Shown here piece by piece: positions 10,733-17,935 of a stretch of DNA of 64,000 nt. A program made the position numbers and the translations under genes. Each line of letters starts with the position of its first letter. Position 1 is the stretch's first letter. Source of the stretch: Gaiellales bacterium (GTDB lineage Bacteria; Actinomycetota; Thermoleophilia; Gaiellales; JAICJC01); the NCBI GenBank assembly GCA_036273515.1, contig DASUHM010000075.1, forward strand, positions 1-64,000, written 5' to 3'. The notes beneath the pieces were generated by a model. It saw only the letters and a program-made list of their open reading frames with translations. It had not been told where the DNA came from and made no database searches.

Positions 10733-10745
10733 CCGGTCGGGCCGG

Positions 10746-12128
10746 CTAGATCCCGAGCGGGTCGAACGTCTGGCGCCGCACGAACTTCCCGTGCCCCGGC
10801 TTGGTCACGATCCGGCCGTCGTCGAAGACGACCGTCCCGCGCGACAGCGTCAGCCGCGGCGAGCCGCGGAGCTCCTGGCCCTCGTAGATGTCGTAGTCGA
10901 CGTTCATGAACGACGTCTCCACCCCGAAGACATGCCGCCGGTTCGGGTCGAAGACGACGATGTCGGCGTCGGCGCCCGCCTCGATGACGCCCTTCTGCGG
11001 GTAGAGCCCGAACATCTTCGCGATCGCCGTCGAGGTGATCTCGACGACCCGGTTCATCGAGAGGCGGCCCTCGCGCACGCCGTGCTCCCACATCATCGGC
11101 AGCCGGTGCTGGATCGCCGCCAGGCCGTTCGGGATCTTCGAGAAGTCGCCCAGGCCCAGCCGCTTCTGCTCGTCGTTGAACGGGCAGTGGTCGGTCGAGA
11201 TGCTCTGCAGGTGGTCGAAGCGCAGCGCGTCCCACAGGAACGGTTGGTTGGAGGCGTCGCGCAGCGGCGGTGAGCACACGTACCGGGCGCCGACGAAGTC
11301 CGGCCGGCGCAGGTCGTCGATCGAGTTGAAGAGGTACTGGATGCAGGTCTCGCCGTAGGCGGCGACGCCGCGGCTGCGCGCTCGGATGATCTCCTCGGCC
11401 GCGTCGCGGCAGGAGACATGGACGACGAAGACCGGCGCGCCCGCGAACTCGGCGAGCCGCACGGCCCGCCCGGTCGCCTCCGCCTCCATCGTCTCGGGCC
11501 GGGTGAGCGCATGGTGGATGGGATCGGTCTGCCCGTTGGCGAGCGCGGTGTTCACGAGGTGCTGGATCGCGAAGCCGTTCTCGCAGTGCACCATCACGAG
11601 CGTCTCGAGCTCCCGCGAGTGCTCGAGCACGGCCAGGAACTGATCGTCGGTCACCATCAGCACGTTCGGGTAGGCGAGGAAGACCTTGAAGCTCGTGATG
11701 CCCTCGTCGACCATCGAGCGCATGTCGGCGATCGTCTCCTTGTCGGCGTTCGTGATCGCCATGTGGAAGCCGTAGTCGACGTGGGCGGCGCCCTCGGCGC
11801 GGCCCATCCACTCCTCGAGCGAGCTGCGCAGGCCGTTGGGGTGCACCTGCAGCGCGAAGTCGACGATGCACGTCGTCCCGCCCGCGGCCGCGGCCTGGGT
11901 GCCGGTGTCGTAGTCGTCGGAGCTGTGCGTGCCGCCGAACGGCATCGACATGTGCGTGTGGTTGTCGATCGCCCCCGGCAGGACGAAGCAGCCGGCCGCG
12001 TCGATCACCTCGGCGTCGACGTTCTCGAACGTCCCGAGGCCGGCGATCGTCTCGCCGTCGACGAGCACATCGGCCCTGGACGTCCCGGCGGCGTTGACGA
12101 CGGTGCCGCCACGGATGATCTTCCTCAT
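10746..12128 (-). CDS. hydA: Dihydropyrimidinase / D-hydantoinase
   Basis: A 460-residue cyclic amidohydrolase of normal family length. Metal-site motifs are visible: GAIDNHTHMSMPFGG (the H-x-H pair, about 57-59), the carbamylated-lysine region GITSFKVFLAYP, VMVHCENG, VVHVSCRDA and STDHCPF (metal Asp). It hydrolyses dihydropyrimidines or 5-substituted hydantoins to N-carbamoyl amino acids. AGGAAGG lies ten bases upstream of the ATG. The carbamoylase gene is 21 bp upstream in the same operon and would convert the product to a free amino acid, ammonia and CO2. Whether dihydrouracil or a hydantoin is the substrate is open. Confidence 0.92.
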   Translation of the reverse strand: MRKIIRGGTVVNAAGTSRADVLVDGETIAGLGTFENVDAEVIDAAGCFVLPGAIDNHTHMSMPFGGTHSSDDYDTGTQAAAAGGTTCIVDFALQVHPNGLRSSLEEWMGRAEGAAHVDYGFHMAITNADKETIADMRSMVDEGITSFKVFLAYPNVLMVTDDQFLAVLEHSRELETLVMVHCENGFAIQHLVNTALANGQTDPIHHALTRPETMEAEATGRAVRLAEFAGAPVFVVHVSCRDAAEEIIRARSRGVAAYGETCIQYLFNSIDDLRRPDFVGARYVCSPPLRDASNQPFLWDALRFDHLQSISTDHCPFNDEQKRLGLGDFSKIPNGLAAIQHRLPMMWEHGVREGRLSMNRVVEITSTAIAKMFGLYPQKGVIEAGADADIVVFDPNRRHVFGVETSFMNVDYDIYEGQELRGSPRLTLSRGTVVFDDGRIVTKPGHGKFVRRQTFDPLGI

Positions 12129-12149
12129 GGCTCTTTGCCCCTTCCTGAA

Positions 12150-13385
12150 TTAGCCGGCCGCGACCAGATCGACCGCGTGGCCCACGGTCTGCGCATATGC
12201 TCGGATGGCCAGCTCGAGGTGCTCGATCGGCGTGTCCTCCTCCTTCGCGTGGCTGATCCCGTTCGTGGAGGACGAGAAGAGCATCACGGTGGGGACGAGG
12301 CGCGCCATCTCCGCGGCGTCGTGCAGCGGGCCGGACGGGAGCGCGTGGTCCGTCCCGCTGACCGCCTGACAGGCCGCGCGCGCGGCCGCGATCAGGTCGG
12401 GATCGAACGGGAGCGGCTCGATCTGCCAGATCCGCTCCCACGCCACGGTGCATTTCTCGACCGCCGCGGCCTCGTCGGCGCTCGCCTTCGCCTCGGCGAG
12501 CATGGCGGCGAGCTCGCCGGCGTCGAGGTGGCGCTGGTCGAGCAGCACGGTCGTCACGCCGGGGATGACCGTGGCAACGCCGGGGACGCACTCGGCCGAC
12601 CCGACCGTGGCGACGCCCTTGTGGCGGACGGCCCCGTCGCGGGCCGCGAGCGCGAACCGCGAGGCGGCCAGGAACGAGTCGCGCCGGACCGGCATCGGCG
12701 TCGACCCGGAGTGGGCCGCCTGCCCGGTGAAGACGATGCGGTGCCGCTCGACGCCGAACGTCCCGAGCACCGTCCCGACGGCGAGGCCGGCCGCCTCGAG
12801 CACCGGGCCCTGCTCGATGTGCAGCTCGAGATAGGCGCGCACGTCCGCCAGCCGGCCGGCGGCGACATGGGCCTGGTCGAGGTCGACGCCGTACTCGCCG
12901 ACGACGTCCGCCAGCCGGTCGCCGGCGGCGTCGCGCAGGTCGCGCACGTCGTCGGGCTTGATGCTGCCGCTCAGCCACGACGAGCCGAACAGGCTGCGGC
13001 CGAAGCGCGCGCCCTCCTCGTCGGCGAAGTCGATCAGCGACACCGAGCACGGCGGCGTGCCCGCCTCGGCGATCGTCCGCAGCACCTCGAGCGCCCCGAG
13101 GACGCCGAGCGCGCCGTCGAGCCAGCCGCCGCTCGGCACCGAGTCGATGTGCGAGCCGATCACGACCGTCTCCGGCCGCGCGCCCTCGAGGCGGGCCCAC
13201 AGGTTGCCGGCTTCGTCGACGTCGACGCTGACGGGCAGCTCGCCCAGCCGCTCGCGCAGGAACCCGCGGGCGTTGTCCCACTCCGCCGTCCAGCACAACC
13301 GGCGGGCGCCGCCCGGGCCGCCGGTCAGGTCGGCGAGGGCGCGCAGGTCGGCGATGGCGCGGTCGGGGCGGGCGGCGATCTCCAT
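12150..13385 (-). CDS. M20-family N-carbamoyl-L-amino-acid hydrolase / beta-ureidopropionase-type
   Basis: A 411-residue amidohydrolase of the hydantoinase/carbamoylase branch of M20. Motifs are GSHIDSVPSGGWLDGALG (metal His and Asp), DFADEEGARFG (catalytic and metal Glu), ELHIEQGPVLE, GQAAHSGSTPM and the C-terminal SGPLHDA and SSTNGISH. It cleaves N-carbamoyl amino acids, so it follows directly on the hydantoinase reaction. The ATG at 13385 lies five bases after the LLM stop. Length matches HyuC/AmaB-type enzymes; stereospecificity and substrate are not readable. Confidence 0.9.
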   Translation of the reverse strand: MEIAARPDRAIADLRALADLTGGPGGARRLCWTAEWDNARGFLRERLGELPVSVDVDEAGNLWARLEGARPETVVIGSHIDSVPSGGWLDGALGVLGALEVLRTIAEAGTPPCSVSLIDFADEEGARFGRSLFGSSWLSGSIKPDDVRDLRDAAGDRLADVVGEYGVDLDQAHVAAGRLADVRAYLELHIEQGPVLEAAGLAVGTVLGTFGVERHRIVFTGQAAHSGSTPMPVRRDSFLAASRFALAARDGAVRHKGVATVGSAECVPGVATVIPGVTTVLLDQRHLDAGELAAMLAEAKASADEAAAVEKCTVAWERIWQIEPLPFDPDLIAAARAACQAVSGTDHALPSGPLHDAAEMARLVPTVMLFSSSTNGISHAKEEDTPIEHLELAIRAYAQTVGHAVDLVAAG

Positions 13386-13390
13386 CTCGC

Positions 13391-14395
13391 TCAGGCCTTC
13401 TGCTTGAAGAGCGGGATGATGTGCTCGCCGTACGCGCGCAGGATCTCCTCCTGGTGTCCCGTCATCAGGTAGATGTTGAACTGCTCGACGCCCTGCGCCT
13501 CGAGCGTGCGCAGCTTCGCGATGTGCTCCTCGATCGAACCGAGGATGCAGAACCGGTCGCAGGTCTCGTCGTCGACGAACTCGCCGTGCTTGGCGCCCTC
13601 GCGGCTGTGGTCGGCGTAGTCGTAGAACTCGCGCCGCGCGAGGTAGCTCGTGAGGCTCTCGGGGAGCATCGACTGGTCGTAGCGCTTGAGCAGGTCGACG
13701 ACGTGGTTCGAGACCATCGCGGGGAACCAGCGCACGGCGTCGCGGGCCACGGCCATGTCGTCGCCGATTGCAACGGGCGCGCAGACGATCGGCGCCAGCT
13801 CGCCCGGCGTCCGCCCGCCCTTCTCCGCCGCGCCGCGGGCCTGGCCCATGATCCAGTCGATGATGTCGGGGTCGGCCAGCTGGATCACGACGCCGTCCGC
13901 CTGGCGGCCGGCGACGCCGAGCGCCCGCGGGCCGTATCCCGCCGCCCAGACCGGGATCCGGGGCAGGTCCTTGGCCCACTCGAGCACGATGTCCTTGCCG
14001 TTCCAGGTCACCGGGCGGCCGTTGGACATGTCGCGGATCAGCGCCGTCGCGGCCTCGAACTCGGCGATCTTCACCGGCTGGAGCCCGATCGTGCGCCGGG
14101 CCGAGTCGCCCCGCCCGATCATCACGACGACCCGGCCGGGGATGATCGTGTTCAGCGTCGCGTGGAAGCTGGCCGTGACCGTGGGCTCGCGCGTGCCCGG
14201 GTTCGTCACGCAGAAGCCGAGCCCGATCGCTTGAGTCTGCACGGCGGCCGCGGTGACGAGAACGCACCCCTCCTGCCAGAGGATGTGCGAGTCGTACGTG
14301 TAGGCCCAGTCGAACCCGCAGTCCTCGGCCAGCCGCACGAGCTCGACGAACCGGGAGCACGGGGGATCGGGAAGGATCGTGACGCCGAACTCGAT
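13391..14395 (-). CDS. LLM-class flavin/F420-dependent oxidoreductase with apparent ATC start
   Basis: A 334-residue luciferase-like barrel: VRLAEDCGFDWAYTYDSH near the N-terminus, GLGFCVTNPGTREPTVTA, GRVVVMIGRGDSARR, and LPRIPVWAAGYGPRALGVAGRQADGVVIQ. It resembles methylene-H4MPT reductase/F420-type enzymes. The first beta-strand (EFGVTILPDPP) is clearly coding but has no NTG start. The only plausible start is ATC at 14395, seven bases after a perfect AGGAGG. The next standard start, GTG 14338, would delete that strand. As first gene of the hydantoinase operon it may oxidise or open a pyrimidine or hydantoin precursor, which is inference. Confidence 0.82.
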   Translation of the reverse strand: MEFGVTILPDPPCSRFVELVRLAEDCGFDWAYTYDSHILWQEGCVLVTAAAVQTQAIGLGFCVTNPGTREPTVTASFHATLNTIIPGRVVVMIGRGDSARRTIGLQPVKIAEFEAATALIRDMSNGRPVTWNGKDIVLEWAKDLPRIPVWAAGYGPRALGVAGRQADGVVIQLADPDIIDWIMGQARGAAEKGGRTPGELAPIVCAPVAIGDDMAVARDAVRWFPAMVSNHVVDLLKRYDQSMLPESLTSYLARREFYDYADHSREGAKHGEFVDDETCDRFCILGSIEEHIAKLRTLEAQGVEQFNIYLMTGHQEEILRAYGEHIIPLFKQKA

Positions 14396-14633
14396 CGGAG
14401 AACCTCCTGACGGCGGCCGCCTCGGCCGCGCCGCGCCACCCTATCAGCCCGGGCCGGCGCAATTTCGTCGCGCCCCCGGCGCACTCGTCACCTGCCGGTC
14501 GTCGCGCCTGGCGCGACGGCCTTGGTGGGCGCGGGCCCACTCCGCCACGGCGCCGGTGGGCTCCATCACGGGCGCGGGCGTCCCGTACCTGCTCGTCGTC
14601 TGCGCCGCGCGCGCTAGAGCGGCCGGGCCGAGG

Positions 14634-15323
14634 TCAGGCGAGGAAGCGCGGCTCCTCGCCGCCGACCAGCACGAGCACCTTGCCCGCCAGCGACTCGTCG
14701 CCGATCAGCCGGAGGGCGGCGTCGACGACCTCGTCCACGCCGATGACCGTTGGCGGGGGCGGCGCGATGTCCTCGATGGACGCAGTCTCGAGCGCCTCGA
14801 GCACACCCTTGGTCGCGACGGTGTGCGGGCACAGGCAGTTCACGCGCACGCCGTCGACCCGGCCGAGCGCCGTCGTGAGGCGGATCACGCCGGCCTTGGC
14901 CACCGCGTACTCGACTCCCGCGTAGGGATCGCGGCCCAGACCTGCGGACGAGGCCACGTTGACGACGCAGCCTCCGTTTGCGGCGAGCGCCGGAAGCGCG
15001 TGGCGGGTCGCCTCCATCACGGCGCCGAGGTTCAGCTCGAGCGGCGTGCGCCAATCGGCGTTCTGCGGATACGTCGGTGACGCGTAGCCGCCGGCGTTGT
15101 TCACCAGGATGTGCAGGCCGCCGAGCCGCTCCACCGCCTCGGCCACCATCCGGGCGCCCTCCCCGGGGCGGCCGAGGTCGCACCGGATCGGCGCGTGGTC
15201 GCGATCGGCGACGACGACCCGCGCGCCGTACGACTCGAGTGCGGCGGCGATGGCCGCGCCGATCCCGCGCGCACCGCCGGTGACGAGGGCCATACGGCCG
15301 GCGAGGCTGGATGGGGATTCCAT
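14634..15323 (-). CDS. SDR-family oxidoreductase
   Basis: A 229-residue short-chain dehydrogenase. TGGARGIG (15-22) binds NAD(P), NNAGGYA marks the substrate side, and the active site is Ser in NVASSAG plus YAVAK. The segment between the first strand and the NAG motif is short, so the protein is near the lower length limit for classical SDRs. The long acidic tail ends VGGEEPRFLA. It stands alone, divergent from the Ppx/GppA-like gene. The 238 bp between its 3' end and the LLM gene hold no convincing gene. Confidence 0.85.
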   Translation of the reverse strand: MESPSSLAGRMALVTGGARGIGAAIAAALESYGARVVVADRDHAPIRCDLGRPGEGARMVAEAVERLGGLHILVNNAGGYASPTYPQNADWRTPLELNLGAVMEATRHALPALAANGGCVVNVASSAGLGRDPYAGVEYAVAKAGVIRLTTALGRVDGVRVNCLCPHTVATKGVLEALETASIEDIAPPPPTVIGVDEVVDAALRLIGDESLAGKVLVLVGGEEPRFLA

Positions 15324-15391
15324 CGACCCATACGTACCCCGCCGCCACCCTGACCGTTTCTTCCGCCATATCTGCGGGTAGTTCGTAGCGA

Positions 15392-16585
15392 ATGAGCACG
15401 ACCGCCTACTACTTCGTCGTCATCCTCCTCGGCGTCTTCAACGTCGTTCTGGCAGCGGTGGCGTACATGCAGCGGGCGAGGCAGATCCGCGGAGGCCGGC
15501 TGCACGAGCAGCAGCTGAAGCTGGCGGAGTCGCGGAACGAGCTGGCCGAGTCGCGCTTGCGCCGCCTGGACGACCAGATCGAGCTGATGGGCCAGATCCG
15601 CGACACGCTCGCGGCGGTGCCTCCGCCCGGGAGCGGCGCGATCGTCGGCGTCATCGACGTGGGCTCGGCGACGATGCGCCTCACCGTCGCCCGGCGCGCC
15701 GGCGGCGAGTGGGAGCGGCTTGGCGGCGAGCGCGCGTTCCTGCGCCTCGGGGCCGAGCTCGAGCGCGAGGGCGGGTACTCGGACGAGGTGCTCGCCCGCG
15801 TCGGCGTCGAGGCGCGCAGGTTCATGGAGGCGGCCGACGCGCTCCGGTGCGAGCGCCTGGCGATCGTGGTCACCGCCCCGGGCCGCTCGGGCCGGAACCC
15901 CGACGCGCTGCTCTCGCAGATCACGCTTGCGACCGGCCGGACGCCGTGCCTGCTCACGCCCGCCCAGGAGGCCAGCCTGACCTTCGCCGGGGCGGCGACC
16001 GGCATGCTCGGCGGCGGCGAGGCGGGGGTCGTCTGCGATGTGGGCGGCGGCTCGACCGAGGTCTCGTACGGAACGCTGCGCGGCGGCGTGGACGTGGTCG
16101 GATCGTTCGACGTCGGAGCGGTGCGCCTGGCCGAGCGCGCATTCGGGCACGACCCGCCGACGCCGGAGGAGCTGGACGCTGCGCGCGTCTACACCCGCAG
16201 CCGGCTGGCGTTCGACCAGCGCGCGACGGCCCGGGTGGCGCTCGTCACGGGCGGGTGCGCCCACGCCCTGGCGAAGCTCGGGGTGTCGGTGCTCGAGCCG
16301 GTGACGTTCGAGGCGGTGACCGCGAGGCTGGCCGCCGGGAACGGTCAGGCGAAGGGCGTTCCCCGGCACCGCCGCCGGGCCCTCCCGGCCGGGATCGTCG
16401 TCTTCGAGCGGCTCCACGAGATCCTCGGGATGCCGCTCACGATCGCCGCGGGCGGGCTCAGACGGGGCGTGCTCGGCGAGCTCGACGAGGACCGCTTCCA
16501 TGACAAGCACGTGGCCGGCCCGCTGCCCGGCGAGCCTGACCTCGGGGACGCCGTCAGACGCCGCGAAGATCGAGCCTGCGGCTGA
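15392..16585 (+). CDS. Membrane-anchored Ppx/GppA phosphatase-like protein
   Basis: A 397-residue protein with an unusual layout: one N-terminal transmembrane helix (about 5-26), a charged coiled coil (about 30-70, with SRNELAESRLRRLDDQ), then a Ppx/GppA domain. The domain shows VIDVGSATMRL (87-97, phosphate loop), LTPAQEASL (188-196, with the likely catalytic Glu193), and CDVGGGSTEVS (215-225). The family hydrolyses polyphosphate or pppGpp; the enzymes I know are soluble, so the anchor is notable. The second phosphate loop is conserved, suggesting an active fold. The last 40 residues are low-complexity. The start has TAGTTC seven bases upstream, a possible leaderless promoter. Confidence 0.8.
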   Translation: MSTTAYYFVVILLGVFNVVLAAVAYMQRARQIRGGRLHEQQLKLAESRNELAESRLRRLDDQIELMGQIRDTLAAVPPPGSGAIVGVIDVGSATMRLTVARRAGGEWERLGGERAFLRLGAELEREGGYSDEVLARVGVEARRFMEAADALRCERLAIVVTAPGRSGRNPDALLSQITLATGRTPCLLTPAQEASLTFAGAATGMLGGGEAGVVCDVGGGSTEVSYGTLRGGVDVVGSFDVGAVRLAERAFGHDPPTPEELDAARVYTRSRLAFDQRATARVALVTGGCAHALAKLGVSVLEPVTFEAVTARLAAGNGQAKGVPRHRRRALPAGIVVFERLHEILGMPLTIAAGGLRRGVLGELDEDRFHDKHVAGPLPGEPDLGDAVRRREDRACG

Positions 16586-16668
16586 GCAGGAACGGCAGGC
16601 CGGCGCCGGCGACGCGCCACACGTTGCTGCGAGCCGGCGAGCGACCGGTCCCCGGTTACCCTTCGTCC

Positions 16669-17319
16669 ATGGCCGCCGAGCCGACGCTCCTCCAGGTGGT
16701 TCCGCGTGCATCGGCGCACCGGGCACAGCTCGTGCGCCGGGCCAAGCTGCTCGCCTGGGGCGGGAACGCATGGCACCTGGTCGAGTTCGCGATCGCCGTC
16801 GGCGCGGGGATCGCCGCCTCGTCCGTCGCGCTGGTGGCGTTCGGGATCGACTCGCTGATCGAGGTGGCCGCGGGCGGAGTGGTCGTGTGGCTCTTCACCG
16901 GCCGGCGGGTCGGGTCTGCCTCCGCCGAGCGGCTCGCCCAGCGGCTGATCGCGGCGAGCTTCTTCGCGCTCGCCGTCTACATCGCGTTCGACTCGATCCG
17001 CGCGCTCGGCGGCGTTCACCCGCAGGCGAGCTGGGTCGGCATCGGCCTCGCGCTCGTCACGGCGCCGGCGATGCCGCTGCTGGCACGCGCCAAGCGCAAG
17101 GTCGGCGTGGAGCTCGGCTCACGCGCGACGCAGAGCGAGGCAGGCCAGAACATGCTCTGCGCCTACCTGTCGGTCGCCCTGCTCGTCGGCCTCGGGGCGA
17201 ACGCCCTCCTCGGCTGGTGGTGGGCCGATCCGCTCGCGGGCCTCGTCATCGCCGCGGTCGCCCTCCACGAGGGCGTCCAGTCGTGGCGCGGCGAGGGCTG
17301 CGCGGACGGCTGCTGCTAA
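16669..17319 (+). CDS. Cation-diffusion-facilitator-like membrane protein
   Basis: A 216-residue membrane protein with five or six helices. SSVALVAFGIDSLIEVAAGGVV matches the CDF second helix (metal Asp kept, the usual preceding His or Asp replaced), and WWWADPLAGLVIAAVALHEG matches the fifth. The C-terminal cytoplasmic domain of true CDF zinc/iron exporters is missing; the protein ends in a short CADGCC tail that could bind metal. Start ATG 16669 follows TACCCT by nine bases, consistent with a leaderless mRNA. It overlaps the convergent small gene by four bases. Confidence 0.78.
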   Translation: MAAEPTLLQVVPRASAHRAQLVRRAKLLAWGGNAWHLVEFAIAVGAGIAASSVALVAFGIDSLIEVAAGGVVVWLFTGRRVGSASAERLAQRLIAASFFALAVYIAFDSIRALGGVHPQASWVGIGLALVTAPAMPLLARAKRKVGVELGSRATQSEAGQNMLCAYLSVALLVGLGANALLGWWWADPLAGLVIAAVALHEGVQSWRGEGCADGCC

Positions 17320-17539: not shown

Positions 17540-17935
17540 CTAGCCGCCTCCCGCCCAGCCGTCCTCGACGAGCTCGCCGTCGCTGGCGTGGTGCGCGCCG
17601 AAGACGAGGAAGTCGAGGCCGTCGGCGCCCGCCTCGAACGCCCGCACCACGCGCGGTGAGACGCGGACGGCGTCGAGCGGGGCGACCTCGACGATCTCGT
17701 CGTCGAGCTTCATCCGCCCGCGCCCGCGCAGGACGACGTAGATCTCCTCGGCCTCGTCGTGGCGGTGGGCGAAGGCCGACCGGCGGCCGGGCTTCAGGCG
17801 GAAGAACGTGACGCCGGTCTGCTCCGCCTCGAGCGCCCTGCGGGCGACCCGCGCTTCCCAGAACCCGTCCAGCCCGTGCTCCGGCGCCGCGTCGTCGACC
17901 TCCGCGAGGTTCTTGAGCGTGTAAGGCTCGGACAT
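17540..17935 (-). CDS. Cupin-domain protein
   Basis: A 131-residue single cupin barrel. Metal-site motifs are visible: FAHRHDEAEEIYVVLRGRG (H-x-H with downstream Glu) and later APLDAVRVSPRVVRAFEAG, in which the usual last His is not obvious. Small cupins of this kind are sugar isomerases, dioxygenases or storage-type binding proteins. Its ATG shares one base with the stop of the upstream SDR (TGATG), so the two are coupled. Role undefined. Confidence 0.8.
   Translation of the reverse strand: MSEPYTLKNLAEVDDAAPEHGLDGFWEARVARRALEAEQTGVTFFRLKPGRRSAFAHRHDEAEEIYVVLRGRGRMKLDDEIVEVAPLDAVRVSPRVVRAFEAGADGLDFLVFGAHHASDGELVEDGWAGGG

Follow-up and report, generated by a model that had tools for sequence, protein, structure and literature searches.

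The fusion locus

The window, that is, the whole 64-kb stretch of DNA analysed here, contains an open reading frame of 397 codons whose product carries a Ppx/GppA phosphohydrolase domain behind a membrane helix and a charged, helical stalk (Table 1). The frame begins with ATG and is open for just one codon 5' of it, so that a longer start is impossible. Codon usage in both halves of the gene agrees with that of the neighbouring genes (0.56 and 0.58), and the other frames score below zero. The gene lies in a segment that G002, a genome of the same genus, does not share. Window positions 10743-14451 match G002:C88 at 88%, and positions 16651-17301 and 17550-17906 match onward on the same G002 contig at 82%, with order and orientation kept. 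The 812 bases between these flanks in G002 carry other reading frames, and the 2,199 bases of the window hold the fusion gene and a short-chain dehydrogenase (SDR) gene. On this comparison, the fusion locus can be described as a lineage-specific 2.2-kb replacement. A chimeric contig was also considered; it is very unlikely, since both flanks are colinear with G002, and was ruled out on that ground.

The SDR gene has no hit at E ≤ 1e-30 in the four nearest genomes (G001-G004). Such hits are present in 4 of 81 genomes, its own genome counted, and the closest relatives, 44-47% identical, belong to more distant genomes of the same order. A search for direct or inverted repeats at the ends of the insert gave 9-base matches alone.

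Table 1. Features of the fusion locus, in window coordinates.
Feature	Position	Strand	Basis or remark
Fusion gene (membrane helix, helical stalk and Ppx/GppA domain; 397 aa)	15392..16585	+	ORF, Pfam, alignment, AlphaFold
Transmembrane helix (residues 8-26), predicted N-out/C-in	15413..15469	+	Hydropathy 2.57; charges on either side
Helical stalk (residues 27-75), homologous to P0002/P0003	15470..15616	+	Alignment, predicted models
Linker VPPPGSGA (residues 76-83)	15617..15640	+	First codon GTG, a possible internal start
Ppx/GppA catalytic domain (residues 84-368)	15641..16495	+	Pfam, alignment, model, structure match
First phosphate loop DVGSATMRL (residues 89-97; Ala93 in place of Asn)	15656..15682	+	Alignment
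Conserved Arg165	15884..15886	+	Invariant in 63 other rows
Catalytic-position Glu193	15968..15970	+	Invariant in 63 other rows; aligns with Aquifex enzyme
Second phosphate loop DVGGGSTE (residues 216-223)	16037..16060	+	Alignment
Segment without counterpart in same-genus G002 (2,199 bp)	14452..16650		G002 has 812 other bases there
Short-chain dehydrogenase (SDR), divergent from fusion gene	14634..15323	-	Same insert; 68 bp between

The N-terminal membrane part and its free-standing relatives

Residues 1-74 of the fusion protein are homologous to two free-standing small membrane proteins, P0002 (114 aa; G001, same genus; L054:6725-7069, minus strand) and P0003 (102 aa; G003, same family; L055:7245-7553, minus strand), with 49% identity to each. 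In a whole-protein search of 151 genomes, these were the two listed matches restricted to the N-terminal part (residues 2-83 in G001, frame 117; residues 3-83 in G003, frame 105), and their genes sit on contigs different from those of the listed Ppx genes of G001 and G003. All three proteins align without gaps from M1 to residue 73, 36 columns being invariant, and DNA identity across this part is 70% over 215 bases (G001) and 68.5% over 200 bases (G003). Because residues 1-74 are about 50% identical to two free-standing membrane proteins and share their start codon, the window gene is, on this alignment evidence, a genuine in-frame fusion, in which a small membrane protein restricted to the family has been joined to an additional ppx copy that has diverged fast. 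The first-pass annotation had named a non-conserved helix with a true start further downstream as grounds for abandoning its reading. Ppx homologues indeed do not conserve the helix, but the true start is not downstream: the shared M1 and the 36 invariant columns uphold the assigned start, and conservation with P0002 and P0003 from M1 onward speaks against a later one.

The most hydrophobic 19-residue segment of the fusion protein is FVVILLGVFNVVLAAVAYM, with a mean Kyte-Doolittle value of 2.57; the corresponding helices of P0002 and P0003 reach 2.35 and 2.36. A hydrophobic helix of about 19 residues, kept in the homologues of the N-terminal part, is what an integral membrane protein should have, and the single N-terminal membrane helix first proposed is thereby borne out. 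The orientation of membrane helices follows the positive-inside rule. In fusion protein, P0002 and P0003 alike, Lys and Arg are absent N-terminal to the helix, and residues 26-40 contain four of them, so the predicted topology is N-out/C-in, with the catalytic part expected in the cytoplasm. The Ppx domain would most likely be cytoplasmic and tethered to the inner membrane.

In the AlphaFold model, residues 3-75 of the fusion protein form one 73-residue helix, of which the stalk makes up about 49 residues, and the same long helix (residues 3-74) is predicted for P0002 from a shallow, 3-row alignment. Hydrophobic stalk residues recur at spacings of seven (37/44/51/65 and 45/52/59/66/73). The heptad-like periodicity near 3.5-3.6 residues per turn is equalled by 50, 73 and 384 of 500 shuffles in the three sequences, and its mean over residues 35-75 of all three by 459 of 2000. 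The '40-residue coiled coil' of the first-pass annotation is thus better described as a helical stalk some 49 residues long; its periodicity does not rise above that of the shuffles and so lends a coiled coil no support.

The free-standing gene has a different genomic context in each of its two genomes. In G001, the P0002 gene lies between an SDR and a gene that by eye looks YciE-like; in G003, the P0003 gene lies 57 bases from a tRNA-Ser. The window genome (G000) and G002 keep both neighbours of the P0002 gene, with an epimerase-like frame (by eye) between them instead (G000:C42, L113:3526-4572; G002:C126, L114:3326-4324). No Pfam family over cut-off covers a protein of the P0002/P0003 type. 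With residues 1-82 as query, 7 of 299 genomes match at E ≤ 0.01, strongly only in G000, G001 and G003; the remaining four have E values of 0.003-0.006, and in one of them, L053, a stop adjoins the matched region. Profile A1 of the N-terminal part matches at least 3 of 399 genomes of the class and at least 2 of 296 of the phylum, with at most 12-16 candidates scored per genome and with these samples and that of the residue 1-82 search overlapping; the second phylum match, G476, covers profile positions 35-86 alone (E 5.2e-5). Among the genomes searched, the N-terminal membrane protein is family-restricted and the anchor is not widespread.

The Ppx/GppA domain

The Pfam scan assigns residues 99-362 to Ppx-GppA (PF02541; 95.4 bits, cut-off 27; E 5.5e-27), and phmmer matches the Aquifex Ppx/GppA protein at E 8.3e-18, plus further solved members of the family. 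The 11 columns that do not vary among the 63 other Ppx rows are all kept (D89, G91, R165, E193, D216, G218, G219, S221, G242, G288 and R327), and 36 of 42 listed conserved columns agree with the close clade, the departures being A93, T98, V298, F306, F338 and R358. The earlier description of a domain with both phosphate loops and the catalytic Glu is confirmed by these results, and the domain search together with the hydrophobic helix bears out the predicted membrane-anchored Ppx/GppA architecture. At the first of these departures, Ala93 replaces a loop-1 Asn found in 94% of the other rows. The residue at this position is Tyr in Aquifex Ppx (1t6c/1t6d), so this Asn is not universal, and its replacement need not abolish activity.

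The AlphaFold model of the fusion protein has a Ppx fold (mean pLDDT 89.6) and matches E. coli PPX (2flo_B) with Z 33.0 over 297 residues (rmsd 3.0) and the two-domain Aquifex Ppx/GppA protein with Z 28.4. PPX-type matches overall span Z 26-33, whereas the NTPDases (GDA1/CD39), which have a related fold, come next with the weaker values of about 19-22.5. Profiles for individual enzymes score below their cut-offs: the exopolyphosphatase profile TIGR03706 gives 131.1 bits (curated cut-off 307), and the GppA equivalog PRK11031 (NF008260) gives 50.1 bits (cut-off 624), over residues 84-272 alone. The fusion protein is like the two-domain Ppx/GppA of Aquifex aeolicus (1T6C/1T6D) in domain length, fold, both phosphate loops, Glu and Arg, but differs in its added membrane helix and stalk, in Ala93 and in its strong divergence. 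Relative to P0002 and P0003, it adds an enzyme domain that they are without.

Relationship to other ppx copies

The window genome has three PF02541 genes, that is, two ordinary ppx genes besides the fusion copy. In a 64-row tree, the C88 copy of this genome falls in a second clade, and the G000:C54 copy, which adjoins PPK1, falls in the clade of the window copy (clade A). The ppk1-linked Ppx proteins of the same order in clade A are the nearest relatives. PPK1-like sequence occurs in the fetched stretch of 32 of 36 clade-A rows (rows assigned by the analyst), whereas the fusion gene has no adjoining PPK, and none was found anywhere in the 64-kb window; conversely, the anchor occurs in none of the clade-A rows. 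The end branch of the fusion Ppx measures 1.55 against a median of 0.39 in the 64-row tree and 2.18 against 0.47 in a careful 33-row tree, which kept 32 of the 63 other Ppx rows. Such a very long branch can mean new function or decay. Grouping the window copy with the copies of its family was not rejected (p-AU 0.52), nor was grouping it with just the two ppk-linked copies in G000 and G002 (p-AU 0.48), so the trees allow the Ppx part to be a fast-evolving duplicate that arose within the family.

Occurrence of the anchored architecture

A helix before the Ppx domain was found in 1 of 94 distinct Ppx proteins, the fusion protein itself; 48 of the 94 had at least 19 in-frame upstream residues to examine, and the set comes from best-match loci rather than random sampling. 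Among the matches listed in the 151-genome search, Ppx-domain matches in other genomes start at residue 24 or later, most of them near 80, and no hydrophobic helix directly precedes the domain in the best-scoring relatives whose frames were read. A scan of named genomes returned 13 Ppx relatives, and in none of them did the alignment take in residues 1-68. Viral contigs gave 22 pattern matches, of which none was confirmed, and phages gave no match. Plasmids yielded 10 records, every one distant and none covering 80% of the query, and a viral fold library gave weak general matches alone.

To our knowledge, bacterial Ppx/GppA enzymes have been studied as soluble proteins. Membrane exopolyphosphatase activity has reportedly been seen in tick mitochondria (PMC3131576). 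Searches of an open-access literature library brought up no report of a bacterial Ppx/GppA protein anchored in the membrane. Another study deals with how polyphosphate affects protein localisation in E. coli disrupted in gppA and ppx (PMC2435150). Ppx/GppA proteins are thus already known; what was not found in this literature or in the 93 other Ppx proteins compared, and appears new, is anchoring by being fused with a small membrane protein that elsewhere stands alone.

Proposed function and alternative explanations

The favoured reading, held with reasonable but far from full confidence, is that the gene is a genuine fusion encoding an inner-membrane protein whose cytoplasmic catalytic domain removes terminal phosphates, probably of short polyphosphate, near the membrane. 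Such a single-pass protein would have a short outside N-terminus, one helix and a cytoplasmic stalk of about 49 residues, which, at 1.5 angstrom per residue, would hold the Ppx domain some 73 angstrom beneath the inner membrane; a short Pro/Gly linker joins the stalk to the two-domain phosphohydrolase. Anchoring would then be the point of the fusion. Against this reading count the single genome, the very long Ppx branch, Ala93 and the five other departures from the clade, the enzyme profiles scoring below their cut-offs and the absence of a PPK from the window. The mycobacterial protein Rv0496 is a Ppx of the two-domain kind, to which the fusion domain would also belong. Terminal phosphates would most likely be cleaved from short polyphosphate, as by Rv0496. 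In M. tuberculosis, Rv0496 acts as an exopolyphosphatase on short chains, Rv1026 of the same family is without exopolyphosphatase activity, and pppGpp is hydrolysed by neither homologue (PMC3411833). Family membership therefore does not tell the substrate.

A membrane sensor or scaffold, in which the domain binds polyphosphate or a nucleotide, hydrolyses it poorly and signals through the stalk to a membrane partner, is an unlikely alternative. The long branch and the change of Asn93 to Ala would suit it, as would the conservation of the stalk in P0002 and P0003, which carry no enzyme, and the lack of exopolyphosphatase activity in Rv1026. However, the full set of invariant residues, catalytic Glu and Arg among them, is kept, the loop-1 Asn is not universal, with Tyr in its place in the Aquifex sequence, and no signalling gene was noticed near the fusion gene. 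Improbable, too, is an ordinary soluble Ppx translated from the GTG at 15617, with the fused membrane part incidental. That codon stands directly before the linker, and the helix is a singular occurrence among the Ppx proteins compared (about half of them examinable upstream), but the N-terminal part is conserved as protein in P0002 and P0003, its codon usage is that of coding sequence, and no obvious ribosome-binding site precedes 15617 (by eye).

Eukaryotic NTPDases are membrane-anchored with the catalytic domain facing outside, and the fold superfamily to which the Ppx domain belongs includes membrane-anchored ecto-enzymes. An outside-facing analogue of these CD39-type enzymes would agree with the NTPDases being the next structural matches, but it is highly improbable: charges indicate C-in in all three proteins, the PPX matches are far better, and the Pfam scan gave no match to PF01150, the GDA1/CD39 NTPDase family. 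An assembly or frameshift artefact uniting two genes has been largely refuted already and keeps only a very slight probability. The fusion is known from a single genome, which limits the reach of the finding, and that genome is in 98 contigs with an estimated contamination of 3.9%. However, one unbroken frame with fitting codon usage spans both parts, and with both flanks in the order and orientation of G002 a false join would need two errors that restore synteny.

Within the favoured reading of an anchored phosphohydrolase, a membrane-wired Ppx copy would show that turnover of polyphosphate (or alarmone) can be placed at a site through gene fusion. The fusion also gives a first functional lead for an unnamed family of small membrane proteins. 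By Rosetta stone reasoning, the free-standing proteins could be membrane adaptors through which a soluble Ppx, or another polyphosphate enzyme, is normally brought to the inner membrane, a partnership that the fusion would hard-wire; this suggestion is speculative and on balance doubtful. If it were true, the family would possess its own system for spending polyphosphate at the membrane.

Other features around the insert

The 22 residues encoded at window positions 14532-14597 match a portion of a small membrane protein at the same place in G002 (L100:1426-1914, minus strand; 59% identity, E 0.002) and may be a remnant of a gene displaced by the insert. Further upstream, positions 10746-14338 (minus strand) carry genes for an amidohydrolase (hydantoinase-like by eye), an M20 peptidase-family hydrolase and a luciferase-like monooxygenase, all on one strand and conserved in G002, a set that looks like a cluster for nitrogen-heterocycle breakdown.
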